Source of the DNA: Variovorax paradoxus
Lineage (GTDB): Bacteria; Pseudomonadota; Gammaproteobacteria; Burkholderiales; Burkholderiaceae_C
Reading direction: 5' to 3'
Length of the DNA stretch: 64,000 nt
NCBI GenBank assembly: GCA_016806145.1
Contig: CP063166.1
Coordinates: 992,001 to 1,056,000, forward strand
A program made the position numbers and the translations under genes. Below the pieces are notes generated by a model. The model saw nothing but the letters and a program-made list of their open reading frames with translations. It had not been told where the DNA came from and did no database searches. Of the stretch, positions 36,939 through 54,629 are shown one piece after another; the first letter of the stretch is position 1, and each line of letters opens with the position of its first letter.

Positions 36939-37730
36939 ATGTCGCAGATGCCCTTGCCCAAGTACCACCAGATCTACCTGGTGCTGCGGGAGCAGTTGCA
37001 TGAGGGCCGCTTCGCCGCCGACGGGCTGCCGGGCGAGCTCGCGCTCATGCAGCAGTTCGGCGTGGCGCGCGTCACCGTGCGGCGCGCGCTCGAGCAGCTC
37101 GCCGCCGAAGGGCTGATCTCGCGCACGCCGGGCCGCCGCACGCGGCCCATCGGCCCGGTCGCGGGCGAGCCGCCGAGCGCGCCGGCCACCGAGCGCGCCA
37201 ACCTGCGCGGCCTGCTCGAGAACCTCGTGACCATGGGCCTGCACACCTCGGTCAAGGTGCTCGAGGTCGCGACCATCACGGCCTCCTCGCAGGTGGCCGA
37301 GGCGCTGCAGTTGCAGCTCGGCGACCCGGTGCAGAAGGCGGTGCGCGTGCGCGCCACGCGCGAAGGCCCGCTCTCGCACATCACCACCTACGTGCCCGAC
37401 ACGATCGCGCGCCGCTTCGGCCGCCGCGAACTCTCGAAGAAGCCGATCCTGGTGCTGCTCGAGGAGTCGGGCGTGAAGGTGGGCCGGGCCCACCAGACCC
37501 TCTCCGCGCGCCTGGCCGACAACGTGCTCGCGCAGCACCTCGACGTCTCGGTCGGCTCGGCCCTGCTCGCGGTGCGCCGCCTGATCTACGACGAAGACGA
37601 GCGCCCGGTGCAGTGGCTGCACGGCTTCTACCGTCCCGACCGCTACACCTACGAGATGCAACTGTCCCGCGTCGGCAGCATCGACGCCAAGGTCTGGGTC
37701 AGCCGGGACGTGTCGGCCAAGTTCAACTGA
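36939..37730 (+). CDS. HutC/UTRA-subfamily GntR transcriptional regulator
   Basis: A 263-residue GntR regulator. The N-terminal winged helix covers residues of about 6-75 (YHQIYLVLREQLHEGRF, ELALMQQFGVARVTVRRALEQLAAEGLI), and the rest is a UTRA ligand-binding domain (VTMGLHTSVKVLEV, HITTYVPDTIARRFG, GSALLAVRRLIYDEDERPVQW). UTRA domains sense small metabolites. It stands first in a long same-strand run of transport and catabolic genes and is the obvious local regulator. A second ATG at 36948 could also be the start. Confidence 0.9.
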   Translation: MSQMPLPKYHQIYLVLREQLHEGRFAADGLPGELALMQQFGVARVTVRRALEQLAAEGLISRTPGRRTRPIGPVAGEPPSAPATERANLRGLLENLVTMGLHTSVKVLEVATITASSQVAEALQLQLGDPVQKAVRVRATREGPLSHITTYVPDTIARRFGRRELSKKPILVLLEESGVKVGRAHQTLSARLADNVLAQHLDVSVGSALLAVRRLIYDEDERPVQWLHGFYRPDRYTYEMQLSRVGSIDAKVWVSRDVSAKFN

Positions 37731-37753
37731 AGACAAAGAAAAGGAAACGCCCC

Positions 37754-38956
37754 ATGCAGACCCGTCGCCGCTTCGTTTCGCAGTCCGCCACCCTGGCCTC
37801 CGCGCTCGCCTTCCCGCTGATCGGCGGGGCCCAACCCAAGCCGCTGAAGGTGGGCGTGCTGCACCCGGTGACGGGCGCGCTCGCCTACTCGGGCCAGCAG
37901 TGCCGGCTCGGCGCGCAGCTCGCGATCGAGGACATCAACGCCGCGGGCGGCATCAAGTCGCTCGGCGGCGCGAAGCTCGAGGCCCTGCTGGGCGACGCGC
38001 AGTCGCAGCCGCAGGCGGGCGCGGCCGAGGTCGAGAAGATGAACGAGGCCGGCGTCAGCGCCATCGTCGGTGCCTTCGCCTCGGCGATCTGCCTGGCCAC
38101 CACGCAGGCCGCGGCCAAGTACAACCTGCCGCACGTAGTCGACGTCGGCGTGGCCGACCAGATCGTCGAGCGTGGCCTGAAGAACACCTTCCGCTTCGGC
38201 CCCGGCTACCGCAAGTCGACCGAGGTCGCGATGGCCAACCTGCTGGTGCTCAACAAGGCCGCGGGCAACCCGGCCAAGACGGTGATGGTGATCCACGAGG
38301 AGTCGCTGTTCGGCGCCGGCACCGCGCAGCTGCTGTCGCGCGAGCTGCCCGGCTACGGCTTCGAGGTGAAGGAGGTGGTGAAGCACGCCAACCCCACGCG
38401 CGACTTCAACAACATCGTGCTGCGCATGAAGTCGATCAACCCCGACATCGTGATCCCGGCCAACTACTACAACGAGTACGCGCTGCTGGTGCGCACCATG
38501 CAGCAGCAGAAGGTGGTGCCGAAGGCGATCTTCTCGGTGCTCGGCGGCGCGGCCTCGAGCTACAAGTTCGTGAAGGAGTTTCCCGACGCGGCCAACGGCA
38601 TCATCGACTGCAACCACTGGTTCAACCCCAAGGACAAGCGCGCGCAGGACCTGCGCAAGCGCGTCGAGGCCAAGGGCCAGTTCTTCAGCTACGAGGTCTT
38701 CATGACCTATGCCGCGATGTGGCTGCTGGCCGATGCACTGGAGCGTGCCAGGTCGGGCGAGCGCGCCGCGATCGTCGACGCGCTCGAGAAGAGCACCTTC
38801 TCGAACCACTTCATGCCCTATGGCCCCACCAAGTTCGTCAACGGCCAGAACGAGGGCGCGCAGCCGCTGATGACGCAGGTGGTGAAGAACGACATCAAGG
38901 TCATCATCCCGCGCGACTACCGCGAGGTGGAGCCGCTGTTCCCGCTGAAGGCATGA
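37754..38956 (+). CDS. Liv-type ABC transporter substrate-binding protein (Tat-like signal)
   Basis: A 400-residue type I periplasmic binding protein of the Leu/Ile/Val-amide family (VGVLHPVTGALAYSGQQ, GAQLAIEDINAAGGI, AIVGAFASAICLATTQAA). The N terminus TRRRFVSQSATLASALAFPL resembles a twin-arginine signal, which would mean folding before export. These proteins bind amino acids, amides, aromatic acids and other carboxylates, so the ligand is unknown. It is 24 bp after the regulator and separated from its permease genes by a 268-bp spacer containing a large palindrome. Confidence 0.9.
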   Translation: MQTRRRFVSQSATLASALAFPLIGGAQPKPLKVGVLHPVTGALAYSGQQCRLGAQLAIEDINAAGGIKSLGGAKLEALLGDAQSQPQAGAAEVEKMNEAGVSAIVGAFASAICLATTQAAAKYNLPHVVDVGVADQIVERGLKNTFRFGPGYRKSTEVAMANLLVLNKAAGNPAKTVMVIHEESLFGAGTAQLLSRELPGYGFEVKEVVKHANPTRDFNNIVLRMKSINPDIVIPANYYNEYALLVRTMQQQKVVPKAIFSVLGGAASSYKFVKEFPDAANGIIDCNHWFNPKDKRAQDLRKRVEAKGQFFSYEVFMTYAAMWLLADALERARSGERAAIVDALEKSTFSNHFMPYGPTKFVNGQNEGAQPLMTQVVKNDIKVIIPRDYREVEPLFPLKA

Positions 38957-39224: not shown

Positions 39225-40097
39225 ATGCTAGACCCCAGCATCCTCTTCCCCTCGGTGCTCAACGGCCTCACGACAGGCGCCGTCTACGCACTGATCGCCT
39301 TGGGCCTCACGCTGATCTACGGCGTGCTGCACATCATCAACTTCGCGCACGGCGCCTGCCTGATGGTGGCGCTGTACGCGGTGTACTTCCTCAAGGAGCG
39401 GCTGGGCATCGATCCCTACCTCGCGCTGCCCGTGGTGGTGCTCGGCATGTTCGCGCTCGGCTATGCGCTGCAGCGCGTGGTCATCAACCGCGCGGGCCAT
39501 GGCAAGGACGAGAACATCCTGCTGGCCACGCTCGGCATCGCGATCGTGATGGAGAACCTCGCGCTGCTGTTCTTCAAGTCCGACACGCGCAACATCGACA
39601 CCGCCTATTCGCTGAGCACCGTGGCCATCGGCCCCGCGATGATCGCCGTGCCCAAGCTGGTGGCCTTCGCGGGCGCGCTCGTGGTCTCGGGCATCCTGTT
39701 CTGGATCATGGGCCGCACCGACCTCGGCCGCGCCATCCGCGCCGTTGCCAAGGAGAAGGAGGGCGCCAAGCTCATGGGCATCGACGTCGACCACGTCTAC
39801 GCCATGAGCTTCGGCATCGGCCTGGCCTGCCTCGGCGCGGCCGCCTGCTTCCTGCTGCCGGCCTACTACGTCAACCCGCAGGTCGGCGGCGGCTTCGTGC
39901 TCGTGGCCTTCACCATCGTCGTGCTCGGCGGCATGGGCAGCTTCGTCGGCGCGCTGATCGGCGGCTTCCTGGTCGGCGTGGTGGAGTCGCTCGGCGGCCT
40001 CTACCTCGGCGAATCGCTGGGACAGATCGGCATCTTCGCGATCTTCATCGGCGTGGTGCTGTTCCGGCCGCAGGGCATGTTCGGGGCCAAGGCATGA
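39225..40097 (+). CDS. Liv-type ABC transporter permease (LivH-like)
   Basis: A 290-residue inner-membrane permease with about eight helices and the LivH pattern (GLTTGAVYALIALGLTLIYGVLHIINFAHGA, in part; GKDENILLATLGIAIVMENLALL; VALGGMGSFVGAL-like VVLGGMGSFVGALIGG). The frame is open upstream through the palindromic spacer, but the ATG at 39225 gives the standard N terminus MLDPSILFPSVLNGLTTG. It overlaps the LivM-like gene by four bases. It forms the channel with LivM. Confidence 0.92.
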   Translation: MLDPSILFPSVLNGLTTGAVYALIALGLTLIYGVLHIINFAHGACLMVALYAVYFLKERLGIDPYLALPVVVLGMFALGYALQRVVINRAGHGKDENILLATLGIAIVMENLALLFFKSDTRNIDTAYSLSTVAIGPAMIAVPKLVAFAGALVVSGILFWIMGRTDLGRAIRAVAKEKEGAKLMGIDVDHVYAMSFGIGLACLGAAACFLLPAYYVNPQVGGGFVLVAFTIVVLGGMGSFVGALIGGFLVGVVESLGGLYLGESLGQIGIFAIFIGVVLFRPQGMFGAKA

Positions 40098-41071
40098 GCG
40101 CCGCGAAGCAACTCGCTGGCATCGCGATGTTCGCGGTATTGGTGGCGTGCGTGCCGCTGGTCACGACCTCGGGCGTCACGCTCAACTTCGTGATGATGGC
40201 GCTCTACGCCACGCTGATCGCGCAGGCCTGGAACATCCTCGGCGGCTTCGGCGGCCAGTTCTCGTTCGGCCATGCGCTGTTCTTCGGCACCGGTGCCTAC
40301 ATCCAGGCCATCGCGCAGCTGCAGGGCGGCATCAATGCCTGGGTCGCGCTGCCGCTGGCCATCGCCGGTGCGGCGCTGGTGGGCCTGTTCATCGGCGCGC
40401 TGAGCTTCCGCTACGGCCTCAAGGGCTCGTACTTCGCGCTGGTCACGCTGGCCTTCGCCGAGGTGTTCCGCATCCTCGCGCTGTCGGTCGACTTCACGGG
40501 CGGCGGCGTCGGCCTGATGGTGCCGCTGCGCGAATCGGTCGCCAACCTGCAGTTCGCCACGCGCGCCGGCTACCTGTGGGTGGTACTCGCGATGGTCGTG
40601 GTGGCGCTGCTCGTCACCTGCTGGCTGCGCAACGGCCGCTTCGGCGCCTACCTGCAGGCGGTGCGCGACAACGAGGACGCGGCGCGCGCCGTCGGCGTCA
40701 ACCCCTTCCGCGTCAAGCTCGCGGCCATCGGCCTGTCGGCCGCCTTCATGGGCGCGGCCGGTGCCTTCTACGTGCAGGTGTTCCAGTACATCGATGCCGG
40801 CATCGCCTACGGCGCGGGCGTGTCGGTCGAGGCGCTGGTGGCGGCCATCGTCGGCGGCATGGGCACCGTGTGGGGCCCGGTGCTCGGCGCGGTCGTGCTG
40901 CACCTGCTGTCGGACTTCACGCGCAACCTGTTCGGCGAGCTGCCGGGCATCAACATGGTGATCTACGGCACCGTGCTCGTGCTGATCGTGATCTTCGTGC
41001 CGCGCGGCATCGCGGGCATCGGCCAGTCGGTGCGGCAGCTCTGGAACGCGAAGGGAGGCCGCGATGAGTGA
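40094..41071 (+). CDS. Liv-type ABC transporter permease (LivM-like)
   Basis: A 325-residue LivM-type permease with ten or so helices. AWNILGGFGGQFSFGHALFFGTGAY, in part, and the cytoplasmic coupling segment RDNEDAARAVGVNPFRVKL are family signatures. It overlaps both neighbours (ATGA with the upstream gene, 8 bp with the ATPase gene downstream), so all four membrane and ATPase genes are translationally coupled. Confidence 0.92.
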   Translation: MSAAKQLAGIAMFAVLVACVPLVTTSGVTLNFVMMALYATLIAQAWNILGGFGGQFSFGHALFFGTGAYIQAIAQLQGGINAWVALPLAIAGAALVGLFIGALSFRYGLKGSYFALVTLAFAEVFRILALSVDFTGGGVGLMVPLRESVANLQFATRAGYLWVVLAMVVVALLVTCWLRNGRFGAYLQAVRDNEDAARAVGVNPFRVKLAAIGLSAAFMGAAGAFYVQVFQYIDAGIAYGAGVSVEALVAAIVGGMGTVWGPVLGAVVLHLLSDFTRNLFGELPGINMVIYGTVLVLIVIFVPRGIAGIGQSVRQLWNAKGGRDE

Positions 41072-41828
41072 ATCGTCCCTGCTGGTGCTCGAGGGCGTCT
41101 CGCGTTCCTTCGGCGGGCTCAAGGCCGTGCAGAACGTGAGCCTCGCCGTGCGCGAGGGCAGCCTCAGCGCGCTGATCGGGCCGAACGGCGCGGGCAAGAC
41201 CACGCTGTTCGCGCTGATGTCGGGCTTCCTCAAGCCCGACGCCGGCAGCGTGCGCTTCGCGGGCCAGGACATCACCGGCCGCGAGCCGCATCGCAATGCC
41301 GCGCTCGGCATGACCCGCACCTTCCAGATCGTGAAGCCCTTCGCCGCGCAGACCGTGCGCGAGAACATCGCGGTCGGCGCGCACCTGCACCTGCGCGGCC
41401 GCACCGAGGCGCTGCGCGAGGCCGAGGCCGTGGCACAGCGCGTGGGCCTCGCGCCGCAGCTCGACAAGCCCGCTTCCGACCTCACCGTGGCCGGCCGCAA
41501 GCGCCTCGAGCTCGCGCGCGCGCTCGCCACCCGGCCGCGCCTGCTGCTGCTCGACGAGGTGCTGGCCGGCCTCAACCCGCAGGAGATCGCCGAGATGATG
41601 CCGGTGGTGCGCGGCATCGCCGCGAGCGGCGTGACCGTGCTGATGATCGAACACGTGATGCAGGCCGTGATGAACCTCGCCGAGCACGTCTGGGTGCTGG
41701 CGCAGGGCCAGCTGATCGCCGAGGGCAGCCCGGCGCAGGTGACCTCCGACGACAGGGTGGTCGAGGCCTACCTGGGCCATGGCACCGCAGCACGGCTGCG
41801 CAAGGCCGCAACGGGAGCCGCGGCATGA
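41064..41828 (+). CDS. Liv-type ABC transporter ATPase (LivG-like)
   Basis: A 254-residue ABC ATPase with Walker A GPNGAGKTT, Q-loop in GMTRTFQIVKPF and Walker B LLLLDEVLAGLNP. The ABC signature is degenerate: LTVAGRKRLELARAL, with Ala at the position that is normally Gly. This form occurs in other LivG proteins, so the protein is probably active. It pairs with the LivF-like ATPase, whose gene it overlaps by four bases. Confidence 0.92.
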   Translation: MSESSLLVLEGVSRSFGGLKAVQNVSLAVREGSLSALIGPNGAGKTTLFALMSGFLKPDAGSVRFAGQDITGREPHRNAALGMTRTFQIVKPFAAQTVRENIAVGAHLHLRGRTEALREAEAVAQRVGLAPQLDKPASDLTVAGRKRLELARALATRPRLLLLDEVLAGLNPQEIAEMMPVVRGIAASGVTVLMIEHVMQAVMNLAEHVWVLAQGQLIAEGSPAQVTSDDRVVEAYLGHGTAARLRKAATGAAA

Positions 41829-42535
41829 GCGCATTGCTTGAAATCGAAGGCCTGCGCGGCGGCTATGGCCGCGTCGAGGTGCTGCGCGGCGTCGACCTGA
41901 AGGTGAACGCCGGCGAGATGGTCGCGCTGCTCGGCAGCAACGGCGCGGGCAAGTCCACCCTCAACAAGATGGTCTGCGGCCTCTGCCCGGCCTGGGGCGG
42001 CACCGTGCGTTTCGACGGCAAGGACCTGAGCGGCGCGCACTACCGCGACGTCGTCAAGGCCGGCCTGATCCAGGTGCCCGAGGGCCGCAAGGTGTTTCCC
42101 AACCTCAGCGTGCGCGAGAACCTCGAGCTCGGCTCGTTCACGCGGGCGCGCGAGCGCCGGGCACGGAACCTCGAGAAATCGTTCGAACTGTTCCCGCGCC
42201 TGCGCGAGCGCATGGACCAGCATGCCGGCACCATGAGCGGCGGCGAGCAGCAGATGCTGGCCATCGCGCGCGGCCTCATGGCCGAGCCCGTGCTGCTGAT
42301 CCTCGACGAGCCCTCGCTGGGCCTCTCGCCGCTGCTGGTCGAGGAGATGTTCACGCTGATCCGCGAACTGCGCGACGGCGGGCTGGCCGTGCTGCTGGTC
42401 GAGCAGAACGTCGGCCAGTCGCTCGAGATCGCCGACCGCGCCTACGTGCTCGAGAACGGCAGCGTGCGCTTCTCGGGGCTGCCCGGCGAACTGCTCGTGA
42501 GCGACGAACTGCGGCGCGCCTACCTGGGACTCTGA
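41825..42535 (+). CDS. Liv-type ABC transporter ATPase (LivF-like)
   Basis: A 236-residue ABC ATPase with Walker A GSNGAGKST, a canonical signature MSGGEQQMLAIARGL and Walker B LILDEPSLGLSP. LQVPEGRKVFPNLSVRENLELG, in part, is typical of LivF. It completes the five-component transporter. The following binding-protein gene begins 37 bp downstream. Confidence 0.92.
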   Translation: MSALLEIEGLRGGYGRVEVLRGVDLKVNAGEMVALLGSNGAGKSTLNKMVCGLCPAWGGTVRFDGKDLSGAHYRDVVKAGLIQVPEGRKVFPNLSVRENLELGSFTRARERRARNLEKSFELFPRLRERMDQHAGTMSGGEQQMLAIARGLMAEPVLLILDEPSLGLSPLLVEEMFTLIRELRDGGLAVLLVEQNVGQSLEIADRAYVLENGSVRFSGLPGELLVSDELRRAYLGL

Positions 42536-42572
42536 GGCGCTCCTCCCCACGATCTCTTTCGGAGAACAACAC

Positions 42573-43529
42573 ATGAAAAGACGCGACATCCTTCTCTCGT
42601 CGCTGGCCGCGGCATGGGCCGGCAACAGCCTGGCGCAGATCGGCGGCGCGCCGGTGCGCATCCTGGTCGGCGCACCCGCGGGCGGCTCCACCGACACGCT
42701 GGCGCGCTCGCTGGCCGTGAGCATGGGCCCGGCGCTGGGCCGCAACGTCATCGTCGAGAACAAGCCCGGCGCGGGCGGCAACATCGCGGCCGATGCCGTG
42801 GCCAAGGCCGCGCCCGACGGCAACACGCTGCTGATGAGCTTCACCAGCCATGCGATCAACGCCACGCTCTATCCGAGCCTGCCCTTCGATCCGGTCAAGG
42901 ACTTCACCGCGCTCACCTGCGTCGCGACCTCGCCTTCGATCCTGGTCGCCCATCCCTCGGTGCCCGCGAAGGACGTGCGCGAGCTGATCGCGCTCGCCAA
43001 GGCCAAGCCGGGCCAGCTCAACTTCGCCATCGGCGCCGTGGGCTCGTCGCTGCACATGGCGGGCGAGGCCTTCAAGATGCAGTCGGGCGTGGACATCGTG
43101 AACATCCCCTACAAGGGGACCTCGCCCGCGGTGCAGGACGTGCTCGCGGGCCAGGTGCAGCTGATGTTCGCGGCCGTGGGCAACGTCAAGGCCCACATCC
43201 AGGCCGGCAAGCTCAAGGCGCTGGGCGTGACCACGGCCAAGCGGCTGCCGGCCTTCCCCGAGGTGCCGGCCATCGCCGAGGCGCTGCCCGGCTACGAGTC
43301 GAGCGCCTGGTTCGGCCTGTTCGGCCCGGCGCGCATGCCCGCCGAGCGCATCAAGCAGATCGGCGATGCCGCACGCCATGCGCTGCAGCAGGCCGACATG
43401 CGCCAGCGCCTCGAGATCGAGGGCGCGATCCCCGTCGGCAATTCGAGCGAGCAGTTCTCGGCCTTCGTGCAGAGCGAGATCGTGCGCTGGGCCAAGGTGG
43501 TCAAGTTCTCGGGAGCCAAGCCCGAATGA
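42573..43529 (+). CDS. Bug/TctC-family periplasmic binding protein (orphan)
   Basis: A 318-residue tripartite tricarboxylate receptor (Bug) protein with signal MKRRDILLSSLAAAWAGNSL. Core motifs are VGAPAGGSTDTLARSLA, VIVENKPGAGGNIAADAVAKAAPDG and GVDIVNIPYKGTSPAVQDVL. Bug proteins are greatly expanded in beta-proteobacteria and bind carboxylates, amides or nicotinate-like acids. No TctA/TctB membrane genes are nearby. Its TGA overlaps the start of the aconitase-like gene, so it is tied to that enzyme in expression. Confidence 0.92.
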   Translation: MKRRDILLSSLAAAWAGNSLAQIGGAPVRILVGAPAGGSTDTLARSLAVSMGPALGRNVIVENKPGAGGNIAADAVAKAAPDGNTLLMSFTSHAINATLYPSLPFDPVKDFTALTCVATSPSILVAHPSVPAKDVRELIALAKAKPGQLNFAIGAVGSSLHMAGEAFKMQSGVDIVNIPYKGTSPAVQDVLAGQVQLMFAAVGNVKAHIQAGKLKALGVTTAKRLPAFPEVPAIAEALPGYESSAWFGLFGPARMPAERIKQIGDAARHALQQADMRQRLEIEGAIPVGNSSEQFSAFVQSEIVRWAKVVKFSGAKPE

Positions 43530-44800
43530 CCTCGACGGCTTCAGCACAGACCCTGGCGCAGAAGCTGATCGCGCGCGCCAGCGGCCGCGAGCGGGTGGCG
43601 GTGGGCGAGATCGTGACCTGCGGCGTCGACCTCGCGATGTTCCACGACTCCTCGGGACCGCGCCGCCTGCAGCCCATGCTCGAGGAACTGGGCGCGCAGA
43701 TCTGGGACCGCTCGCGCGTGGTGCTCGTGATGGACCACTACGTGCCCGAGCGCGACGACGACTCGCGCCGCATCGTGCGCATCGCGCGCGACTGGGCGCG
43801 CGACCAGAAGCTGCCGCACGTCTACGACAGCCAGGGCATCTGCCACGTGGTGGTGCCGCAGCACGGCCACATCCGCCCCGGCATGCTGTGCGTGGGCGGC
43901 GACTCGCACTCGCCCACGGGCGGCGCCTTCGGTGCCTACATGTTCGGCGTCGGCAGCACCGAGATGCTCGGCGTGGTGGTCACGGGCGAGATCTGGCTGC
44001 GCGTGCCCGAGACCCTGCGCATGTGGTGGGACGGCGCGCTGCCCGCGGGCGTGACCGCCAAGGACATGATGCTGCACATGATCGGCCGCTTCGGCATGAA
44101 CGGTGGCCGCTACCAGGCCGTGGAGTTCGCGGGGCCGGCGGTGGTCGCGCTGTCGATGCAGGAGCGCATGACGCTCTCGAACATGAGCGCCGAACTCGGC
44201 GCGCAGGCCGGGCTGATCGCACCCGATGCCACCACGGCCGCGTTCCTGGCCGGTGCCGGCGCGCCGCCGGTCGACATGGCGCCGTGGTTCACCGACGCTG
44301 ATGCGGCGCTCACGGACCACCGCTTCGATGCCGCCACGCTAGAACCCCATGTGGCCGCGCCGCACAGCCCGGCCAATGCGCATGGCGTGAGCCGCTTCGT
44401 CGGCACGCCGGTCGACGTCGCCTACATCGGCGCCTGCACCGGCGCCAAGCTCGACGACCTGCGCGCCGCCGCGCAGGTGCTGCGCGGCCACAAGGTCGCG
44501 AACGGCATCCGCCTGATCGTGGCGCCCGCGAGCCTGCGCGACCAGGAACAGGCGCGCGAGGAGGGCGTGCTGCAGGTGCTGATGGAGGCCGGCGCCGAGC
44601 TGTTCCCCACCGCCTGCGGCGCCTGCTCGGGCTATGGCGATCCGATGGGCGACGACATCACCGTCATCTCGACCACCGCGCGCAACTTCAAGGGCCGCAT
44701 GGGCTCGCCGACCGCGCAGGTCTACCTGGGCTCGCCCTACACGGTGGCGGCCGCCGCGCTGCGCGGCTGCGTGACCGATCCGCGCGAGGTGCTGGCATGA
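43526..44800 (+). CDS. Aconitase-superfamily hydro-lyase, large subunit (LeuC/HacA-like)
   Basis: A 424-residue large subunit of the archaeal-type isopropylmalate/homoaconitase branch, to which dimethylmaleate hydratase also belongs. Three cysteines ligate a 4Fe-4S cluster: Cys304 in YIGACTGAK, and Cys364 and Cys367 in FPTACGACSGYGDP. GGDSHSPTGGAFGAYMFGVGSTE is the usual active-site segment, in part. It should hydrate or dehydrate a substituted malate/maleate. The gene is paired with the small subunit and is far from any leuB-like gene, so leucine synthesis is unlikely. Confidence 0.87.
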   Translation: MTSTASAQTLAQKLIARASGRERVAVGEIVTCGVDLAMFHDSSGPRRLQPMLEELGAQIWDRSRVVLVMDHYVPERDDDSRRIVRIARDWARDQKLPHVYDSQGICHVVVPQHGHIRPGMLCVGGDSHSPTGGAFGAYMFGVGSTEMLGVVVTGEIWLRVPETLRMWWDGALPAGVTAKDMMLHMIGRFGMNGGRYQAVEFAGPAVVALSMQERMTLSNMSAELGAQAGLIAPDATTAAFLAGAGAPPVDMAPWFTDADAALTDHRFDAATLEPHVAAPHSPANAHGVSRFVGTPVDVAYIGACTGAKLDDLRAAAQVLRGHKVANGIRLIVAPASLRDQEQAREEGVLQVLMEAGAELFPTACGACSGYGDPMGDDITVISTTARNFKGRMGSPTAQVYLGSPYTVAAAALRGCVTDPREVLA

Positions 44801-47630: not shown

Positions 47631-47646
47631 AATGAAACACGAACAG

Positions 47647-47756: not shown

Positions 47757-47830
47757 AAGTCCGATCCCGTTTCGTGCCCATCCGTCGCCTCGTGCGATGC
47801 GGGTGGCACTCAGTGCAATGGAAAACTGAC

Positions 47831-49525
47831 ATGAACGACACACTCGACCCCGTCACGCTCGCCGTGCTGCGCGGCCGCCTCGAGCAGGTGGCCGACGAGA
47901 TGGACGCCACGCTCTACCGCAGCGCGTTCAATCCCATCATCGCCGAGGCGCACGACGCCTGCCACGGCCTGTACGACGCGACCAGCGGCGACACGCTGGT
48001 GCAGGGCAAGTCGGGCCTGCCGGTGTTCGTCGGTGCCATGGCCTTCGCGGTGCGCGCCACCGTCGCCGCGGCCGCGCCGCGCGGCGGCATGAAGGACGGC
48101 GACATCTGGATCAGCAACGATGCCTACGACGGCGGCACGCACGCCAACGACTTCAAGCTGGTCAAGCCCTTCTTCCGCAACGGCAAGCTCTACTGCCACA
48201 TGGCCTCGGCCGCGCACTGGCACGACGTGGGCGGCGCGGTGCCCGGCAACTACAACCCCGCGGCTACCGAGTGCTGGCAGGAAGCGGTGCAGATCCCGCC
48301 GGTGCGCATCGTGCGCGACGGCAAGCTCGATGCCGACGTGCTCGCGATCCTGCAGGCCAACACGCGCCTGCCCGACAGCTTGTGGGGCGACCTCAACGGC
48401 CAGCTCGCGGCGCTCGAGCTCGGCGCGAAGCGGCTGAACGGCCTGCTCGACGAGTACGGCGACGACCTGGTGCTGAACGCGCTCGGCGAGCTGCGCGGCC
48501 GCGCGCTGCGGCTGATGCGCTCGCACATCGCCTCGCTGCCCGACGGCCGCTACAGCTTCGAGGACCTGCTCGACAACGACGGCATCGTGAACGAGCCGCT
48601 GACCATCGCGCTCGACATGACGGTGGCCGGCGACCGGCTGCTGCTCGACTTCTCGCGCACCTCGGCGCAATGCGCGGGACCGGTCAACATCTCGCGCGCC
48701 ACCGCCGTGGCGGCCTGCTACGTCGCGCTCAAGCACCTGTTCCCCGACGTGCCGGCCAATGCCGGCGTGCTCGACGCGGTGGACTTCGATATCCCCGACC
48801 GGCTGGTGATCAGCGCCGAGCGCCCGCGTCCGGTCGGCGGCTACACCGAGACCATCCTGCGCATGATCGACGTGATCTTCAGCGCCGCCGCGCAGGCCGA
48901 TCCCACGCGCGCCGTCGCGCAGGCCTACGGCACCATCAACGCGCTGTCGATCGCGGGCCACCGCAGCGACAAGGGCCGCGAGGGCCAGCGCTGGGTGATG
49001 TTCAGCTTCTTCGGCGGCGGCCATGGCGGTCACTCGGGCGGCGACGGGCTCTCGCACGGCAATGCGCCGATCTCGACCGCGACCATTCCGCCGCTGGAGA
49101 TCCTCGAGGCGGCCTATCCGGTGCGCTTCACCGAATGGTCGCTGCGCGCCGATTCGGGCGGCGACGGCCGGCACCGCGGCGGCCTCGGCGCCGTCTACGA
49201 GATCGAGCTGCTCGAGCAGGACGCCGAGGTCTTCGTGTTCGGCGAGCGCGGCACCTCGCCGCCCAAGGGCATCGCGGGCGGCGGCGCGGGCGCGGTCAAC
49301 GTGTTCCGCTACGAGAACGCGGGCGAATGGCACGTGCCGCCGATGGTCTCGAAGATGCGCGGCATCCGGCTCGAGCGCGGCGAGCGCGTGCGGCTCGAGA
49401 CGCCGGGCGGCGGCGGCTGGGGCGAGGCCGCCGAGCGGCCCGCGGCGCAGCGCGCGGCCGACCGCGCGATGGGCTATGTGACGACCGGCAACGACAAGAA
49501 CGACAAGGACGAGGCATCCGAATGA
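47831..49525 (+). CDS. Hydantoinase/oxoprolinase B-family subunit
   Basis: A 564-residue HyuB-type subunit. DPVTLAVLRGRLEQVADEMDATL, in part, is the family entry; MKDGDIWISNDAYDGGTHANDF and ASAAHWHDVGGAVPG contain conserved Asp/His residues, and the C terminus has the usual TPGGGGWG. With the A subunit it forms an ATP-dependent amidohydrolase that opens five-membered lactams such as hydantoins or 5-oxoproline, or an acetone-carboxylase-like enzyme. The ATG at 47831 gives MNDTLDPVTL; upstream sequence is the palindromic repeat. Its stop overlaps the A-subunit start. Confidence 0.9.
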   Translation: MNDTLDPVTLAVLRGRLEQVADEMDATLYRSAFNPIIAEAHDACHGLYDATSGDTLVQGKSGLPVFVGAMAFAVRATVAAAAPRGGMKDGDIWISNDAYDGGTHANDFKLVKPFFRNGKLYCHMASAAHWHDVGGAVPGNYNPAATECWQEAVQIPPVRIVRDGKLDADVLAILQANTRLPDSLWGDLNGQLAALELGAKRLNGLLDEYGDDLVLNALGELRGRALRLMRSHIASLPDGRYSFEDLLDNDGIVNEPLTIALDMTVAGDRLLLDFSRTSAQCAGPVNISRATAVAACYVALKHLFPDVPANAGVLDAVDFDIPDRLVISAERPRPVGGYTETILRMIDVIFSAAAQADPTRAVAQAYGTINALSIAGHRSDKGREGQRWVMFSFFGGGHGGHSGGDGLSHGNAPISTATIPPLEILEAAYPVRFTEWSLRADSGGDGRHRGGLGAVYEIELLEQDAEVFVFGERGTSPPKGIAGGGAGAVNVFRYENAGEWHVPPMVSKMRGIRLERGERVRLETPGGGGWGEAAERPAAQRAADRAMGYVTTGNDKNDKDEASE

Positions 49526-51576
49526 GCTCCCCTGGCAACCCCCGCAATTCCCTGGTCGTCGGCGTCGACGTCGGCGGCACCTTCACCGACCTGTTCGTGC
49601 TCGACGAGGCGAACGGCACGGCGCGCATCGTCAAGGTGCCGTCCACACGCGGCGAGGAAGCGCGCGGCTTCATGAACGGCGTGGCACGCGTGGCCGATTC
49701 GGCCGCGGCCATCGCCACCATCGTGCACGGCACCACCGTCGGCACCAACGCGCTGCTCGAGCGCAAGGTGGCGCGCACCGGCATCATCACCACGCGCGGC
49801 TTCCGCGACGTGCTCGAGATGCGCCGCCGCGACCGGCCCCAGACCTGGGGCCTGCGCGGCAGCTTCCTGCCCGTGGTGCCGCGCGACCTGCGCCGCGAGG
49901 TCGACGAGCGCGTGCTGGCCGACGGCACCCTGCACACCGCGGTCGATCTCGACCAGGTGCGCGCCGAGGCGCGCGCGCTGCTCGAGGCCGGCTGCGAGGC
50001 GGTCTGCGTGTTCTTCATCAACACCTACGCCAACCCGGCGAACGAACGGCTCGCGGTCGCGGCAGTGCGCGAGCTCTGGCCGAATCCGCACGTCACATCG
50101 GCCAGCGAGGTGCTGCCCGAGATCCGCGAGTTCGAGCGCTGCTCGACCGCCACGCTCAATGCCGCGCTGCAGCCGGTGGTGGGCAGCTACCTCGGCCGGC
50201 TCGAGTCGGACCTGCGCGCGCAGGGCTTCGCGGGCGAGCTGCTGGTGGTGCAGAGCAACGGCGGCGTGATGTCGCGCCAGACCGCGAGCGACCTGCCGGT
50301 GCGCACCGCGCTGTCGGGCCCGGCCGCCGGCGTGATCGCCTGCGCGGCCATCGCGCGCGCGGCCGGCTTCCCGAACGCGATCACCGGCGACATGGGCGGC
50401 ACCTCGTTCGACGTCTCGCTGGTGGCCAACGGCGAGGCCGCGCTGGCGGCGCAGACCGCGATCGAGTTCGGCATGGTGATCCGCTCGCCGATGATCCAGA
50501 TCGAGACCATCGGCGCGGGCGGCGGCTCCATCGCCTCGGTGGATGCGAGCGGCATGCTGCAGGTGGGCCCCGAGTCGGCCGGCAGCGTGCCGGGCCCGGC
50601 CTGCTACGGGCGCGGCAACATGCGCCCCACGGTGACCGATGCCAACGTGCTGCTGGGCCGCATCGCGGCGGACCGGCCGCTGGGCGGCGGCCTGCTCGCG
50701 GCGCTCGACGGCGAGAAGTCGCGCCAGGCCATCGAGGAGCACGTCGCGCGCCCGCTGGGCCTGGACGTGCATGCGGCCGCCGAGGCCATCCTCACGGTCG
50801 CCAACGCACGCATGGCCGGCGCCATTCGCCTGGTGTCGATCGAGCGCGGGCACGACCCGCGCCGCTTCGCCTACATGCCCTTCGGCGGCGGCGGCGCGCT
50901 GCACGTGTGCGCGATGATGCGCGAGGTCGGCGTGGCCACCGGCATCGTGCCGCGCTATCCCGGCGTGACCTCGGCGCTGGGCTGCGTGATCGCCGACATG
51001 CGTCACGACGCGGTGCAGACCCTCAACAAGCCGCTGGCCGAACTCGACGTGGCGGACGTCCAGCGTCGCATCGACGAGCTGGCCGCGAGCTGCCAGCAGC
51101 GCCTCGACTCCTCGGGCGTGCGCTTCGAGGAGGTGCGCGAGGTGATCGCGCTCGACATGCTCTACGCCGGCCAGACGCACACGCTGCCCGTGGTGCTGGG
51201 CAGCGCGCCGCTCACGGCCGCGGCCATCCGCGCCGCCTTCGAGGCCAGCTACACGGCCGCCTTCGGCCGCGTGCTCGAGGGCATCGCGATCCGCGTGATG
51301 AACCTGCGCTATGCACGCATCGGCGTGCGGCCCAAGTTCGACCTCAAGGTGCTCGCGCCCGAGGGGCAGGGCAGCACCGCGCCGCTGGGCACGCAGCGCG
51401 TGTTCCATGACGGCCGCTGGCACGAGGCGCAACGCTATGCGCGCCTCGAGCTGCCGGTGGCCGCGCGCATCGAAGGGCCCGCGATCCTCGAGCAGGCCGA
51501 CACCACCGTGTGGCTCGAACCTGGCTTCCATGCCGAGGTCGATGCGCACGGCAACCTGCTCGTGAGGCTGTCATGA
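49522..51576 (+). CDS. Hydantoinase/oxoprolinase A-family subunit
   Basis: A 684-residue HyuA-type subunit of the ASKHA ATPase fold. VVGVDVGGTFTDLFVLD is the phosphate-1 motif, TIVHGTTVGTNALLERK and ITGDMGGTSFDVSLVANG are the other nucleotide-binding blocks, and GAGGGSIASVDASGMLQVGP is typical. It supplies ATP for ring opening with the B subunit. The frame is open far upstream, inside the B-subunit gene, but the ATG at 49522 gives the family start and a four-base overlap. Which lactam, imide or ketone it acts on cannot be read from sequence. Confidence 0.9.
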   Translation: MSSPGNPRNSLVVGVDVGGTFTDLFVLDEANGTARIVKVPSTRGEEARGFMNGVARVADSAAAIATIVHGTTVGTNALLERKVARTGIITTRGFRDVLEMRRRDRPQTWGLRGSFLPVVPRDLRREVDERVLADGTLHTAVDLDQVRAEARALLEAGCEAVCVFFINTYANPANERLAVAAVRELWPNPHVTSASEVLPEIREFERCSTATLNAALQPVVGSYLGRLESDLRAQGFAGELLVVQSNGGVMSRQTASDLPVRTALSGPAAGVIACAAIARAAGFPNAITGDMGGTSFDVSLVANGEAALAAQTAIEFGMVIRSPMIQIETIGAGGGSIASVDASGMLQVGPESAGSVPGPACYGRGNMRPTVTDANVLLGRIAADRPLGGGLLAALDGEKSRQAIEEHVARPLGLDVHAAAEAILTVANARMAGAIRLVSIERGHDPRRFAYMPFGGGGALHVCAMMREVGVATGIVPRYPGVTSALGCVIADMRHDAVQTLNKPLAELDVADVQRRIDELAASCQQRLDSSGVRFEEVREVIALDMLYAGQTHTLPVVLGSAPLTAAAIRAAFEASYTAAFGRVLEGIAIRVMNLRYARIGVRPKFDLKVLAPEGQGSTAPLGTQRVFHDGRWHEAQRYARLELPVAARIEGPAILEQADTTVWLEPGFHAEVDAHGNLLVRLS

Positions 51577-52187
51577 GCGAAACGAAACACCCGATCGCGG
51601 CACGCACCGCGCTGGTCGTCATCGACCTGCAGAACGACTTCCTCGACCCAAGGGGCGCCTATGCGCGCGGCGGCGACGCCAACCCGCCCGCGCTGCTGCT
51701 ACCGGCGCGCGTGGCCACGGTGGCGCGCGCGCTCAAGGCCGCGGGCGGCATGGTGGTGGCGAGCCAGTTCACGCTGTGGCCCGATGCCGCGGGCGAGCCG
51801 ATGGTGTCGCCGCACCTGAAGGCGCTGCGCCCCTACCTCGCCAAGGGCGACTTCGCGCCCGGCAGCTGGGGCCAGGCCAACGTCGACGCGCTGGTTGGGC
51901 TGGTCGACGTGACCGTGAGCAAGGTCGCGTACTCGGCCTTCTTCAACACCCAGCTCGACTGGGTGCTGCGCCGCGCGGGCATCGACACGGTGGCGGTCTG
52001 CGGCATCGTCACCAACGGCGGCGTCGCGAGCACGGTGCGCGATGCGCACATGCGCGACTACCGCACGCTGGTGCTGGCCGACGGCTGCGCGGCCTTCGGC
52101 GAGGAGCGCCACCAGACCTCGCTGGCCGACATGCGCAACGTGGCCGAGGTGACGGACTGCGCGGCCTTCGCCGCGTCGCTGCGATGA
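51573..52187 (+). CDS. Isochorismatase-fold protein lacking the nucleophilic cysteine
   Basis: A 204-residue isochorismatase/nicotinamidase-fold protein. The catalytic Asp18 (VVIDLQNDF) and Lys117 (VSKVAYSAFFNT) are present. In cysteine hydrolases the third residue is a Cys in the pattern TxxCV; here it is CGIVTNGGVAST, with Gly150 at that position. True isochorismatases also lack this Cys, so the protein could be a vinyl-ether hydrolase-like enzyme, a lyase, or inactive, but is unlikely to be a normal amidase. It overlaps the HyuA-type gene by four bases. Confidence 0.85.
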   Translation: MSETKHPIAARTALVVIDLQNDFLDPRGAYARGGDANPPALLLPARVATVARALKAAGGMVVASQFTLWPDAAGEPMVSPHLKALRPYLAKGDFAPGSWGQANVDALVGLVDVTVSKVAYSAFFNTQLDWVLRRAGIDTVAVCGIVTNGGVASTVRDAHMRDYRTLVLADGCAAFGEERHQTSLADMRNVAEVTDCAAFAASLR

Positions 52188-52197
52188 AGTACAACAA

Positions 52198-52308
52198 CCG
52201 GACGCAGAGGACGCGAAGGTTTCGCAAAGAGCGCGAAAAAGAAATTCAAAATTTTTTGCTGTCTTCCTTTGGCGTCCTTCGCGGAACCTTCGCGTCCTCT
52301 GCGTCCGG
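52198..52308. repeat. 110-bp-class palindromic repeat, copy 2
   Basis: Terminal 28-base arms (52198-52225 and 52281-52308) are complementary at 27 of 28 positions and match those of copy 1 at 47647-47756. The middle differs from copy 1 and is AT-rich near 52240-52257. It begins 10 bp after the stop of the isochorismatase-fold gene and ends 36 bp before the flavoprotein gene, so it lies inside the same run of genes. Confidence 0.88.
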
Positions 52309-52344
52309 AAGTCCGTTCCCGCCTTCCGACGAATCCACCCCCTC

Positions 52345-53769
52345 ATGGCTGAAATGACCCCCATGCTTTCACGCAGGATCCGTCGCGCGGCCTCGGTCGA
52401 GGCCGAGGTGCGCGTGCCGGTGGCGATCGTCGGCGGCGGCGCCTGCGGGCTCACGGCCGCGCTGATGCTGGCCGACGCGGGCGTGGACTGCGTGGTGCTC
52501 GAGCGCGATGCGCTGCCGAGTGGATCGACCGCGCTGTCCTCGGGCTTCATCCCCGCGCCCGGCACGCTCGCGCAGCGCGCGCACGGCGTGCTCGACGACA
52601 GCGCCGAGCGCTTCGCCGCCGACATCCAGGCCAAGGCCCATGGCCGCGCGGCGCCCGCGCTGGTCGCGGCCTATGCGGGCGCCATCGGCCCGGCGCTCGA
52701 TGCGCTGCAGGCGCGGCACGGGCTGCGGTGGCTGCTGCTCGATGGCTTCCTCTACCCGGGCCATGGCGTGCATCGCATGCATGCGCTCGAACAGAAGACC
52801 GGCGCCGCGCTGATGGCGGCGCTGCAGTCGGCCGCCGAGGCGGCAGGCATTCCGGTGCTGACGCAGGCGCTGGTCGACACGCTGGTGCTCGATGACGGCG
52901 ACCGCGTGGTCGGCGTCGAGTACGCGCGCCCCGACGGCAGCCGCGAGACGCTGGGCTGCGATGCGCTGCTGCTGGCCTGCAACGGCTTCGGCGGCAATGC
53001 GCCGATGGTGCGCGCGCTGCTGCCCGAGATGGCCGAGGCCGCGTTCGGCGGCCATGTGGGCAACGACGGCAGCGCGATCCTCTGGGGCCAGGCGCTGGGC
53101 GCGCGACTGCGCGACCTCGGCGGCTACCAGGGCCATGGCTCGTGGGTCACGCCGCAGGGCGCGCTGATGTCCTGGGCCGTGATGATGGAAGGCGGCGTGC
53201 AGCTCAACTGCGAGGGCCGGCGCTTCCACGACGAGACCCAGGGCTACTCGGAGGCCGCGGTGCATGTGCTCGCGCAGCCGGGCGGCATCGCCTGGAACGT
53301 GTTCGACGCGCCGCTGCTCGCGCTGGCGCGCGGCTTTCCCGACTTTTGCGAGGCCGAGGCGGCGGGTGCCGTGCGGCGCTGCGAGTCGGTGGCCGCGCTC
53401 GCCGACTGCATCGGCTGCGAGGCCGCGGTGCTGCAGGCCACGCTCGACGCGATGCGCGCCGGCGAACCCGCACCCGACGGCCGCGCGTTCGCGCGCGGCC
53501 TCGACGCTCCGTACTTCGCGGTCAAGGTCACGGGCGCGCTGTTCCACACCCAGGGCGGTCTCGACACCGCGCCCGACATGCGCGTGCTGCGCCACGACGG
53601 CACGCCCTTTCACAACCTGCTGGCCGCGGGCGGCGCGGCGGGTGGCGTGTCGGGCGACGCGGTCTGGGGCTATCTCTCCGGCAACGGCCTCCTGAGCGCC
53701 GTGGCCGGCGGCTACATCGCGGCGCGCACGCTCGCCGCGCCCATCCCAACCAGGACGAACTCCGCATGA
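52345..53769 (+). CDS. FAD-dependent oxidoreductase, fumarate-reductase flavoprotein-like
   Basis: A 474-residue flavoprotein of the FAD_binding_2 family. VAIVGGGACGLTAALMLADAG binds the ADP part of FAD, in part, LNCEGRRFHDET and the C-terminal LLAAGGAAGGVSGDAVWGYLSGNGLLSA, in part, are typical of fumarate reductase, tricarballylate dehydrogenase and 3-ketosteroid dehydrogenase relatives. It probably removes or adds hydrogen across a C-C bond next to a carboxylate. Three in-frame ATGs (52345, 52354, 52363) are possible starts, none with a strong ribosome site. Its stop overlaps the lyase gene. Confidence 0.82.
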   Translation: MAEMTPMLSRRIRRAASVEAEVRVPVAIVGGGACGLTAALMLADAGVDCVVLERDALPSGSTALSSGFIPAPGTLAQRAHGVLDDSAERFAADIQAKAHGRAAPALVAAYAGAIGPALDALQARHGLRWLLLDGFLYPGHGVHRMHALEQKTGAALMAALQSAAEAAGIPVLTQALVDTLVLDDGDRVVGVEYARPDGSRETLGCDALLLACNGFGGNAPMVRALLPEMAEAAFGGHVGNDGSAILWGQALGARLRDLGGYQGHGSWVTPQGALMSWAVMMEGGVQLNCEGRRFHDETQGYSEAAVHVLAQPGGIAWNVFDAPLLALARGFPDFCEAEAAGAVRRCESVAALADCIGCEAAVLQATLDAMRAGEPAPDGRAFARGLDAPYFAVKVTGALFHTQGGLDTAPDMRVLRHDGTPFHNLLAAGGAAGGVSGDAVWGYLSGNGLLSAVAGGYIAARTLAAPIPTRTNSA

Positions 53770-54629
53770 CGAATCCCTCCTTCAAGACCCGGCTCGCGCG
53801 CAACGACATCGTGCTCGCGCCCGGCGTGTACGACGCGCTCAGCGCACTGGTGGCCGAGCAGGCCGGCTTCGAGGCGCTGTACCTCTCGGGCGCCTCCATC
53901 GCCTACACGCGGCTCGGCCGTTCCGACGTCGGCCTCACCACCTTCACCGAGGTGGCCGACACGCTGGCGCGCATCACCGAGCGCGTGCGCGTGCCGGTGA
54001 TCGTCGATGCCGACACCGGCTTCGGCAACGCGCTCAACACCCAGCGCACCGTGCGCGGCTTCGAGCGCGCGGGCGCGGCCATGGTGCAGATCGAGGACCA
54101 GACCTTTCCCAAGCGTTGCGGCCATCTCGACGGCAAGGCCGTGGTGTCCGAGCGCGAGATGGTCGGCAAGCTCAAGGCCGCGCTCGATGCACGCAGCTCG
54201 AGCGAGACCCTGATCCTCGCGCGCACCGACGCGGTGGCGGTCGAGGGCATGGAGGCCGCGCTCGACCGCGCCGAGGCCTATCTCGCCTGCGGCGTGGACG
54301 CGCTCTTCATCGAGGCGCTGCGTTCGCCGGAGCAGATGGACGCGGCCTGCCGGCGCTTCGGCGACCGCGTGCCGCTGCTGGCCAACATGGTCGAAGGCGG
54401 CAAGACGCCGATCGAGGATGCCGATGCATTGCAGCGGCACGGCTTTCGCATCGCGATCTTTCCGGGCGGCACGGCGCGCGCCGTGACGCACACGCTGCAG
54501 GGCTACTACGCGAGCCTGCACCGGCACCGCACCACGCAGCCGTGGCGGCCGCAGATGCTCGACTTCGATGCGCTCAACGCGGTGATCGGCACGCCCGAGC
54601 TGATGCTCGAAGGACAGAAGTACGAATAG
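53766..54629 (+). CDS. Isocitrate lyase/PEP mutase-family C-C lyase
   Basis: A 287-residue member of the ICL/PEPM superfamily. The flexible catalytic loop FPKRCGHLDGK holds Cys118, as in lyases (methylisocitrate, 2,3-dimethylmalate lyase) rather than PEP mutases. VPVIVDADTGFGN binds Mg and ILARTDA is the usual beta-strand motif. Such enzymes cleave 2-hydroxy-dicarboxylates to pyruvate or glyoxylate plus a carboxylate. It ends the long array and would follow the aconitase-like hydratase. The symbol prpB is not used because no methylcitrate synthase is present. Confidence 0.87.
   Translation: MTNPSFKTRLARNDIVLAPGVYDALSALVAEQAGFEALYLSGASIAYTRLGRSDVGLTTFTEVADTLARITERVRVPVIVDADTGFGNALNTQRTVRGFERAGAAMVQIEDQTFPKRCGHLDGKAVVSEREMVGKLKAALDARSSSETLILARTDAVAVEGMEAALDRAEAYLACGVDALFIEALRSPEQMDAACRRFGDRVPLLANMVEGGKTPIEDADALQRHGFRIAIFPGGTARAVTHTLQGYYASLHRHRTTQPWRPQMLDFDALNAVIGTPELMLEGQKYE

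Follow-up and report, generated by a model that had tools for sequence, protein, structure and literature searches.

A putative two-module catabolic operon of Variovorax joining ring-opening hydrolases to an aconitase-like hydratase and an isocitrate lyase-family enzyme

A stretch of 64,000 nucleotides from Variovorax paradoxus (contig CP063166.1, positions 992,001 to 1,056,000; hereafter the window, with position 1 as its first letter) carries at 36939-54629 an array of 16 genes, all on the plus strand, which probably encodes one inducible catabolic pathway of two modules, in which the ring of a cyclic imide or amide would be opened, water would be added at the stage of a methyl-substituted maleate, and the product would be cleaved to pyruvate and a carboxylate. 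Gene content, gene order, the conservation of the lower module and the replacement of the ring opener were computed for the array and its relatives. The aconitase-like subunits LeuC and LeuD and a lyase of the isocitrate lyase (ICL) family constitute a conserved lower module; a Liv-type ATP-binding cassette (ABC) transporter, a ring opener and usually a flavoprotein constitute the upper module.

The substrate class, all the reactions and their order, the formation of pyruvate and the induction of the genes are what we infer for this pathway. The transporter LivKHMGF would import a small cyclic imide or amide, the ring of which would be opened by HyuB-HyuA at the cost of ATP. The isochorismatase-fold protein (IsoC) and, where needed, the flavoprotein, which would oxidise the compound if the ring was saturated, would convert the opened product into a methyl-substituted maleate or fumarate. 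LeuC-LeuD would then hydrate it to a 2-methyl-3-substituted malate, and the ICL-family lyase would carry out a retro-Claisen cleavage to pyruvate and a second carboxylate. Bug1 probably imports the dicarboxylate itself, and MmgE/PrpD and Bug2 may be regarded as an optional extension. The features of the array are:

36939..37730, plus strand, GntR/UTRA regulator (PF07702, 110.8 bits; PF00392, 55.4 bits)
37754..38956, plus strand, LivK-type periplasmic substrate-binding protein (PF13458, 171.9 bits)
39225..40097, plus strand, LivH-type permease (PF02653)
40094..41071, plus strand, LivM-type permease (PF02653)
41064..41828, plus strand, LivG-type ATPase (PF00005, PF12399)
41825..42535, plus strand, LivF-type ATPase (PF00005)
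42573..43529, plus strand, Bug1, TctC-family receptor (PF03401, 239 bits)
43526..44800, plus strand, aconitase-family large subunit, LeuC/HacA-like (PF00330)
44797..45309, plus strand, aconitase-family small subunit, LeuD/DmdB-like (TIGR02087)
45299..46624, plus strand, MmgE/PrpD-family protein, accessory (PF03972, PF19305)
46662..47630, plus strand, Bug2, TctC-family receptor, accessory (PF03401, 270 bits)
47631..47830, no strand, intergenic, copy of a palindromic repeat in the gap between Bug2 and HyuB
47831..49525, plus strand, HyuB-type subunit of a putative ATP-dependent cyclic amide hydrolase (PF02538, 547 bits)
49522..51576, plus strand, HyuA-type subunit (PF01968, PF05378, PF19278)
51573..52187, plus strand, isochorismatase-fold protein (IsoC) with Gly150 at the usual Cys position (PF00857)
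52188..52344, no strand, intergenic, copy of a palindromic repeat in the gap between IsoC and the flavoprotein
52345..53769, plus strand, FAD_binding_2 flavoprotein of flavocytochrome c / urocanate reductase fold (Pfam)
53766..54629, plus strand, lyase of the ICL/phosphoenolpyruvate (PEP) mutase family (PF13714, 145 bits)

Conserved lower module and replacement of the ring opener

A total of 139 loci around LeuC (L031-L169), from 80 genome contigs and 59 further genome regions, were compared, with the genes labelled by tblastn. The 80 contigs hold the best 80 of at least 521 confirmed loci, and close relatives dominate the sample for this reason. The main clade consists of 119 loci with a LeuC at least 52% identical to that of the array; the other 20, in which LeuC is more distant, are paralogues and remote relatives and do not form a random control. 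LeuC was nearly complete in 118 loci and the state of the ring opener could be scored in 103. Counts of gene presence (n=103) refer to any position in the fetched stretch, at identity thresholds chosen by us, and tallies of ring openers (n=119 or 20) to the 10 kb on either side of LeuC. The gene finder performed poorly on L132, L134 and L135, among others, for which the tblastn labels were used. Two main-clade matches (G186 and G850) were left out of the flank comparison, and three loci (L174-L176) were added later and stand outside the tallies. Among the matches listed, the closest relatives of LeuC belong to Variovorax and are at most 95% identical. LeuC relatives of the array kind (E-value of 1e-95 or lower, minimal clusters included) were present in 20 of 399 genomes sampled from the order and in 14 of 398 sampled from the phylum.

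A relative of LeuD was identified in all 103 scored main-clade loci and one of the ICL-family lyase (at least 50% identical) in 87 of them, and the array is thus not a chance cluster; a relative of the UTRA regulator was present in 90. LivK was found in 75 of the 84 loci with a ring opener versus one of the 19 without, showing that the Liv transporter goes with the ring opener. MmgE/PrpD was examined as a core enzyme and rejected, as only 12 of the 53 loci with HyuB-HyuA have it; it was found in one of the 15 loci with a PuuE-type ring opener, and in none of the 16 with a metal amidohydrolase (CAH) or the 19 with no ring opener. The counts for Bug2 are identical, and both genes are therefore considered accessory. 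The outline of the single route proposed in a first-pass annotation of this DNA is retained, with MmgE/PrpD and Bug2 outside its core.

Three unrelated hydrolase families supply the ring opener. Within the main clade, HyuB-HyuA was found in 53 loci, CAH in 16 and a PuuE/imidase-type protein in 15, and 35 loci, many of them truncated, showed none; no ring opener was found within 10 kb of LeuC in the 20 loci with a more distant LeuC. Where all the genes could be seen, HyuBA (48/48) or CAH (15/15) is encoded on the same strand as LeuC, in the interval from LeuD to the flavoprotein; five further Hyu loci and one CAH locus lacked one of the genes needed for this comparison. The same interval in the array holds MmgE/PrpD and Bug2, followed by HyuB-HyuA-IsoC. 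The source genome (9.4 Mb) has six HyuA genes, which gives a chance of about 1.3% of finding one in a given 20 kb. The earlier proposal that ring opening by HyuAB feeds the hydratase and the lyase is supported by the replacement of HyuAB by two unrelated families of cyclic-amide hydrolases.

HyuA and HyuB have the domain make-up of ATP-dependent hydantoinases/oxoprolinases (PF02538 in one subunit; PF05378, PF01968 and PF19278 in the other) and carry the glycine-rich motifs VGVDVGGTFTD and TGDMGGTSFD, which we take to be phosphate-binding. Their nearest NCBIfam models are the alpha (518.6 bits) and beta (277 bits) subunits of caprolactamase, respectively, both far below the equivalog cut-off of 1000; the passages of PMC8453981 drawn on here describe CapAB of Pseudomonas jessenii as such an ATP-dependent caprolactamase. 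CAH is a protein of 490 residues found in the LeuD-flavoprotein interval of two Ramlibacter records, one of Polaromonas and others. Its best NCBIfam match is an allantoinase model (211 bits, below the cut-off), followed by another allantoinase, dihydropyrimidinase models and dihydroorotase, and its nearest solved structures are allantoinases and hydantoinases. All six positions of the set HxH, Lys, His, His, Asp, presumably the ligands of a binuclear metal site, are conserved in the 16 aligned CAH proteins. The cyclic amidohydrolase family includes imidase, as stated in part of PMC4437985.

The PuuE/imidase-type proteins resemble polysaccharide deacetylases, and the two that were compared match the PuuE allantoinase 3cl6 (82.3 and 105.5 bits). 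Passages of PMC9304392 describe the fungal cyclic imidase HxnM as similar to the imidase of P. putida and, through HpPgdA, as related to PuuE. An in-line PuuE arrangement (IsoC2-PuuE-PuuE, after PrpD-Bug2) occurs in L116 alone; L114, from a genome coded as the same family (f3), carries HyuB-HyuA-IsoC at that place. L126, L127 and L128 have IsoC2 and two PuuE-type genes next to LeuC-LeuD; neither a flavoprotein nor an ICL-family gene was found in their vicinity, and L126 has in addition an acyl-CoA dehydrogenase gene between IsoC2 and LeuC. Two PuuE-type genes also occur in a divergent group at L102:2809-7332, opposite UTRA-LeuC-LeuD-FAD-ICL, together with genes for a Cys-type isochorismatase-fold protein, a protein of the Asp/Glu/hydantoin racemase family and a Rieske oxygenase. 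AtuA-family and DUF4387 genes lie just before the regulator in L092, L095, L101, L103, L104, L106, L107, L110 and L139, mostly PuuE-type operons.

For a LeuC tree, the 118 loci were dereplicated to 80, of which 70 have a ring-opener state and 10 are truncated loci without one; it is a quick tree, with 33 of its 77 inner branches open. The ring-opener state requires at least 17 changes on this tree versus a mean of 36.5 in shuffles, and the state is therefore clustered yet often changed. Well-supported branches alone force four changes for Hyu, three for CAH and four for PuuE. The flavoprotein and the ring opener occurred together in 48 loci and were both absent from 15, with the ring opener alone in three and the flavoprotein alone in one (Fisher p 3.6e-11, uncorrected for relatedness).

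The Paraburkholderia operon L174 (UTRA-LivKHMGF-LeuC-LeuD-HyuB-HyuA-IsoC-ICL) combines both modules and has no flavoprotein; its genes are currently annotated with names such as 3-isopropylmalate dehydratase and pyrimidine utilization protein B. The route thus either does not need the flavoprotein or has its task performed elsewhere. A plasmid locus, L176, is of the minimal kind (Bug1-LeuC-LeuD-ICL-UTRA), and a relative of Bug1 adjoins many minimal LeuCD-ICL clusters. Pigmentiphaga-type operons (L065, L066, L068, L077, L084 and L091) keep only UTRA-LeuC-LeuD-IsoC-ICL; next to them lie a Bug gene in divergent orientation and another gene, of the arylmalonate decarboxylase / Asp-Glu racemase type.

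Layout and enzymes of the array

All 16 genes match Pfam families and were recovered by a codon-usage gene finder with one start off by 9 bases; this gene finder was trained on the array itself and so tests the boundaries more than the existence of the genes. The 16 same-strand genes of named families listed by the first-pass annotation are thereby confirmed, as are its many ATGA overlaps, of 4 bases each, which occur at seven of the 15 junctions, including Bug1-LeuC, LeuC-LeuD, HyuB-HyuA, HyuA-IsoC and FAD-ICL. The third-position GC is 0.92-0.97 across all the genes, and therefore none of them looks foreign. Three gaps are wide, namely LivK-LivH (268 bp), Bug2-HyuB (200 bp) and IsoC-FAD (157 bp). 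The latter two contain a palindromic repeat with the arm AACCTTCGCGTCCTCTGCGT and its complement; the arm has 117 matches in the genome at two or fewer mismatches, and a reversed control has none.

The ends proposed earlier, from the start of the UTRA gene to the stop of the ICL-family gene, fit. Two SDR genes and a fumarylacetoacetate hydrolase-family gene lie upstream on the same strand (34437-36815); conservation of these and of a LysR gene downstream is limited to some of the Variovorax loci. The source genome has three more clusters of LeuC-like, ICL-family and Bug genes, at C1:392508-395227 (L151), C2:83670-86586 (L170) and C2:874405-881433 (L171), the latter two with a UTRA gene as well; a hydratase paired with a lyase appears to recur in this genome as a catabolic motif. 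The PEP-mutase-family sequence at C3:89239-89799 is interrupted by three stop codons and is probably a pseudogene.

The large subunit LeuC exceeds the cut-offs of the hacA_fam model TIGR01343 (405.1 vs 385.7 bits) and of the general subfamily NF001614 (528.5 vs 385 bits), falls narrowly short of the archaeal isopropylmalate isomerase model IPMI_arch (403.8 vs 410.15 bits) and stays well below the equivalog models HacA_Meth (349.3 vs 550 bits) and LeuC (TIGR00170, 230.9 vs 560.25 bits; TIGR02083, 345.6 vs 610.65 bits). Three other loci in the source genome exceed the LeuC cut-off, the best at 774 bits. The cysteines of its motifs GaCtgak and CgaC, which we take to be iron-sulphur ligands, are conserved among relatives. 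LeuD exceeds the cut-off of the LeuD/DmdB family TIGR02087 (156 vs 108.95 bits). Its loop reads DTDALAPGHAMKHG, and in the alignment the position of its Lys is taken by Arg in 2pkp, the small subunit of homoaconitase (PGPYLRT), and by Val in the isopropylmalate/citramalate isomerase 3vba (PARYLVY); relatives usually have Lys at this position, and Gln, His or Arg in some cases. The Arg of the YLRT loop of homoaconitase binds the extra carboxylate.

The best NCBIfam model for the lyase is PrpB, at 291.8 bits versus a cut-off of 354.4 bits, and a genuine PrpB above the cut-off is encoded elsewhere in the source genome (C2:2246748). The KRCGH motif at residue 116, presumably a mark of the lyase branch of the ICL/PEP mutase family, is conserved in at least 97% of 90 aligned sequences; it is kept in 8/8 listed relatives at least 61% identical and differs in 4/4 listed relatives at 33-41%. 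Database names of close relatives include a few 2,3-dimethylmalate lyases, the others being oxaloacetate decarboxylase or 2-methylisocitrate lyase-like. Aligned with the methylisocitrate lyase 1o5q, the lyase shares Phe and Pro at the candidate pocket positions, where its third residue is Ile instead of Leu. We assume that Phe186, Leu234 and Pro236 of PrpB form the C2-methyl pocket, with Trp, Phe and Thr in isocitrate lyases, and pyruvate is therefore favoured over glyoxylate. Between the two products offered by the first-pass annotation, pyruvate is thus the likelier and glyoxylate, judged from these active-site residues, the less likely.

No leuB-like or prpC-like gene was detected by Pfam among the 16 genes, in agreement with the earlier reading, which had argued from this against leucine and methylcitrate metabolism. 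Both are rejected here, as the equivalog cut-offs are missed and genuine LeuC and PrpB genes exist separately in the genome.

Structure prediction for the flavoprotein and for IsoC (mean pLDDT 84 and 90, respectively) gave information on the fold only. The best Foldseek matches of the flavoprotein are 6t86, 6t85 and 1qjd. Tyr301 aligns with residue 402 of flavocytochrome c3 in a profile alignment (1jrz, an Arg402Tyr mutant), and all 23 aligned sequences have it; His264 and His401 are kept. Arg402 is presumably catalytic in the flavocytochrome c fumarate reductases, and the two His positions are taken to be functional. A role as fumarate reductase was rejected on account of the Tyr, and fold and residues together make the flavoprotein a relative of the fumarate reductases and not a member of that group.

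The nearest folds of IsoC are RutB, 3kl2 and biuret hydrolase, with maleamate amidase (Cys149) further down. D18, K117, G149 and G150 occur in 21/21 aligned sequences, and in a larger set of 56 sequences GIVTNGGVAST reaches the 97% conservation level. The isochorismatase-fold cysteine amidases such as RutB and maleamate amidase use a Cys-Asp-Lys triad. The position of Gly150 is occupied by Cys in 3kl2 and by Ser in the RutB entry compared, which we assume to be a Cys mutant. IsoC was therefore rejected as an ordinary half-amidase. Isochorismatases of the EntB/PhzD kind work without Cys, and IsoC may perform acid catalysis on an enamide or act as a non-classical amidase. It is present in 49 of the 53 Hyu loci; the Cys-type IsoC2 occurs in five of the 15 PuuE loci.

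Evidence against the pathway and alternative explanations

Several observations weigh against the two-module pathway. Gly150 of IsoC replaces the Cys of its amidase relatives, leaving the loss of the second C-N bond unexplained, and neither IsoC nor IsoC2 relatives were found in the 16 CAH loci; no enzyme can thus be assigned to the second C-N cleavage in the Hyu branch, the CAH branch or part of the PuuE branch. HyuA and HyuB also match acetophenone carboxylase models, so that HyuAB alone is no proof of ring hydrolysis, and all three ring-opener families also hold ureide-cleaving enzymes. The PuuE gene lies outside the LeuD-flavoprotein interval in 11 of the 12 loci with all three genes, mostly on the opposite strand and adjoining a PrpD homologue. 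The association between flavoprotein and ring opener was not significant in a relatedness-aware test (median p 0.125), in which six starred pairs gave a mean of 4.1 in the same direction and none in the opposite. The flavoprotein occurs with no visible ring opener in L108, and likewise in the truncated L093, L104, L139 and L140; conversely, five loci (L124, L126, L127, L147 and L174) carry a ring opener and LeuCD without it, the first four of them also without an ICL-family gene. The flavoprotein and the isochorismatase-fold protein named by the first-pass annotation are present in the array, but the former is missing from L174, an otherwise complete operon, and the latter is without the amidase Cys. 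Separate occurrence of the modules in relatives, named at the outset as a finding that would count against a common route, is seen to a limited extent. Ten loci that are complete on both sides have LeuCD-ICL but neither a ring opener nor a flavoprotein; a UTRA gene and, in most cases, a Bug gene go with it, for example in L112-L118. The truncated L148 likewise has LeuCD-ICL and no ring opener or flavoprotein. LeuCD stands without ICL, flavoprotein or ring opener in the complete loci L131, L144 and L167, and a plasmid locus of Cupriavidus metallidurans, L175, reads UTRA-Bug1-LeuC-LeuD, with no ICL-family relative found.

The foremost alternative, which we consider unlikely, is that the ring is a ureide such as a hydantoin, dihydropyrimidine or allantoin-like compound, from which an N-carbamoyl acid would be formed and decarbamoylated by IsoC, the skeleton reaching LeuCD and the lyase after loss of the amino group. 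All three families offer precedents (allantoinase/hydantoinase for CAH, the PuuE allantoinase, hydantoinase for HyuAB), and IsoC is closest to RutB, 3kl2 and biuret hydrolase. However, the Cys used by RutB and biuret hydrolase is absent from IsoC, and the conversion of a carbamoyl amino acid into an alkylmaleate needs a deaminase or ammonia lyase, for which no gene was found in the array by Pfam or is annotated in L174.

It is rather improbable that the lower module acts on a tricarboxylate of the methylaconitate/tricarballylate kind to give pyruvate and succinate. In that case it would be a copy of the methylcitrate branch used for catabolism, with a flavoprotein resembling TcuA, and HyuAB would serve an unrelated nitrogen source. 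PrpB as the best model of the lyase, the match of the flavoprotein to TcuA models (among many others) and the LeuD loop Lys in place of the Arg of the homoaconitase small subunit fit this explanation, but the cut-offs are missed (291.8 of 354.4 bits for PrpB, 101 of 369 bits for TcuA) and the recurrent cyclic-amide hydrolases in the operon are left unexplained.

That the array merely sets side by side separate catabolic modules with no common substrate, held together by shared regulation or chance, is very improbable: the loci with LeuCD-ICL alone, the variable presence of PrpD-Bug2 and the three further clusters of the source genome speak for it, but HyuBA or CAH lies on the same strand between LeuD and the flavoprotein in 63/63 loci with all genes seen, the ring opener has repeatedly changed on the tree and was seen in none of the 20 loci with a more distant LeuC, and ATGA overlaps join Bug1-LeuC, LeuC-LeuD, HyuB-HyuA, HyuA-IsoC and FAD-ICL.

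Known systems, possible substrates and significance

Each of the enzyme families is known, and so is the hydratase-lyase pair, from nicotinate fermentation. This fermentation, as carried out by Eubacterium barkeri, uses dimethylmaleate hydratase (DmdAB) and 2,3-dimethylmalate lyase (Dml) and further involves a hydroxylase, a reductase, an enamidase, methyleneglutarate mutase and methylitaconate isomerase. The same two enzyme families are paired in the array, a likeness at the family level; the array pair stands instead with cyclic-amide hydrolases and a Liv ABC transporter. None of the other nicotinate-fermentation enzymes was found among the 16 genes by Pfam (and NCBIfam for 10 of them), a search confined to the array and not extended to the rest of the genome. 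The analogy with nicotinate fermentation drawn by the first-pass annotation therefore holds for the hydratase-lyase pair and not for the other steps.

Bacterial cyclic imide degradation by an imidase and a half-amidase is known from Blastobacter. The PuuE-type variants with a Cys-type IsoC2 resemble this scheme, whereas the array IsoC lacks the Cys. The ring openers of cyclic imide degradation, as described in parts of PMC9304392 for the P. putida imidase and the fungal HxnM, belong to the same families as those of the array relatives; the known imide routes end in simple acids (hydroxyglutarate with HxnM and HxnN, according to the same passages), whereas the array operon adds a hydratase and a lyase. 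The methylcitrate cycle has its lyase family and likely its product pyruvate in common with the array, which lacks prpC and acnD; a putative prpC-acnD-prpF-dml cluster of Variovorax WS11 is described in passages of PMC9804861. Isopropylmalate isomerase LeuCD and archaeal homoaconitase HacAB belong to the same superfamily as the array LeuCD, the large subunit of which is closest to the archaeal isopropylmalate/citramalate isomerases and homoaconitases and below all LeuC/HacA equivalog cut-offs. The combination of genes with exchangeable ring openers did not come up among the papers that the open-access literature searches listed.

A more specific and rather doubtful suggestion is that the operon degrades methyl-substituted maleimides from chlorophyll or heme breakdown, above all hematinic acid, which has methyl and propionate side chains. 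Hematinic acid bears a ring methyl group, and for the other tetrapyrrole maleimides this group follows from their names. Opened hematinic acid would correspond to cis-homoaconitate with one extra methyl; LeuCD, as a homoaconitase relative with a basic loop residue, would hydrate it, and the lyase would yield pyruvate and glutarate, or butyrate from methylethylmaleimide. Passages of PMC7318184 name methylmaleimide, methylethylmaleimide, methylvinylmaleimide and hematinic acid as tetrapyrrole maleimides and cite senescent leaves and lake sediments as sources of maleimides and hematinic acid; in the leaf data given there, hematinic acid was found and maleimides were not. Parts of PMC8669743 report maleimides among the products of bacterial porphyrin transformation, and not their use. 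Among the papers listed by literature searches on these compounds, no title or abstract start told of bacterial growth on them, which does not prove its absence.

Downstream of its lyase gene, L103 has a gene of CoA-transferase family III whose best model is succinate-glutarate CoA-transferase (257 bits vs a cut-off of 750) and which offers a weak lead to glutarate as a possible product; L139 has a relative of this gene, and the copy in L123 prefers formyl-CoA transferase. A candidate glutaryl-CoA dehydrogenase beside LeuCD in L126 was rejected, its best model being another acyl-CoA dehydrogenase. The other neighbours of the loci (AtuA, DUF4387, Rieske oxygenase, racemase families, MlrC peptidase, MBOAT and others) gave no hint of the substrate.

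Because the ring openers are exchanged, the substrate class is directly testable. If the two-module pathway is correct, a gene set of many Variovorax genomes would join three unrelated ring openers to one hydratase-lyase end, and genes now annotated as 3-isopropylmalate dehydratase and pyrimidine utilization protein B would gain substrates. Should the maleimide suggestion hold as well, the operon would provide a bacterial end-route for the carbon and nitrogen of tetrapyrroles.

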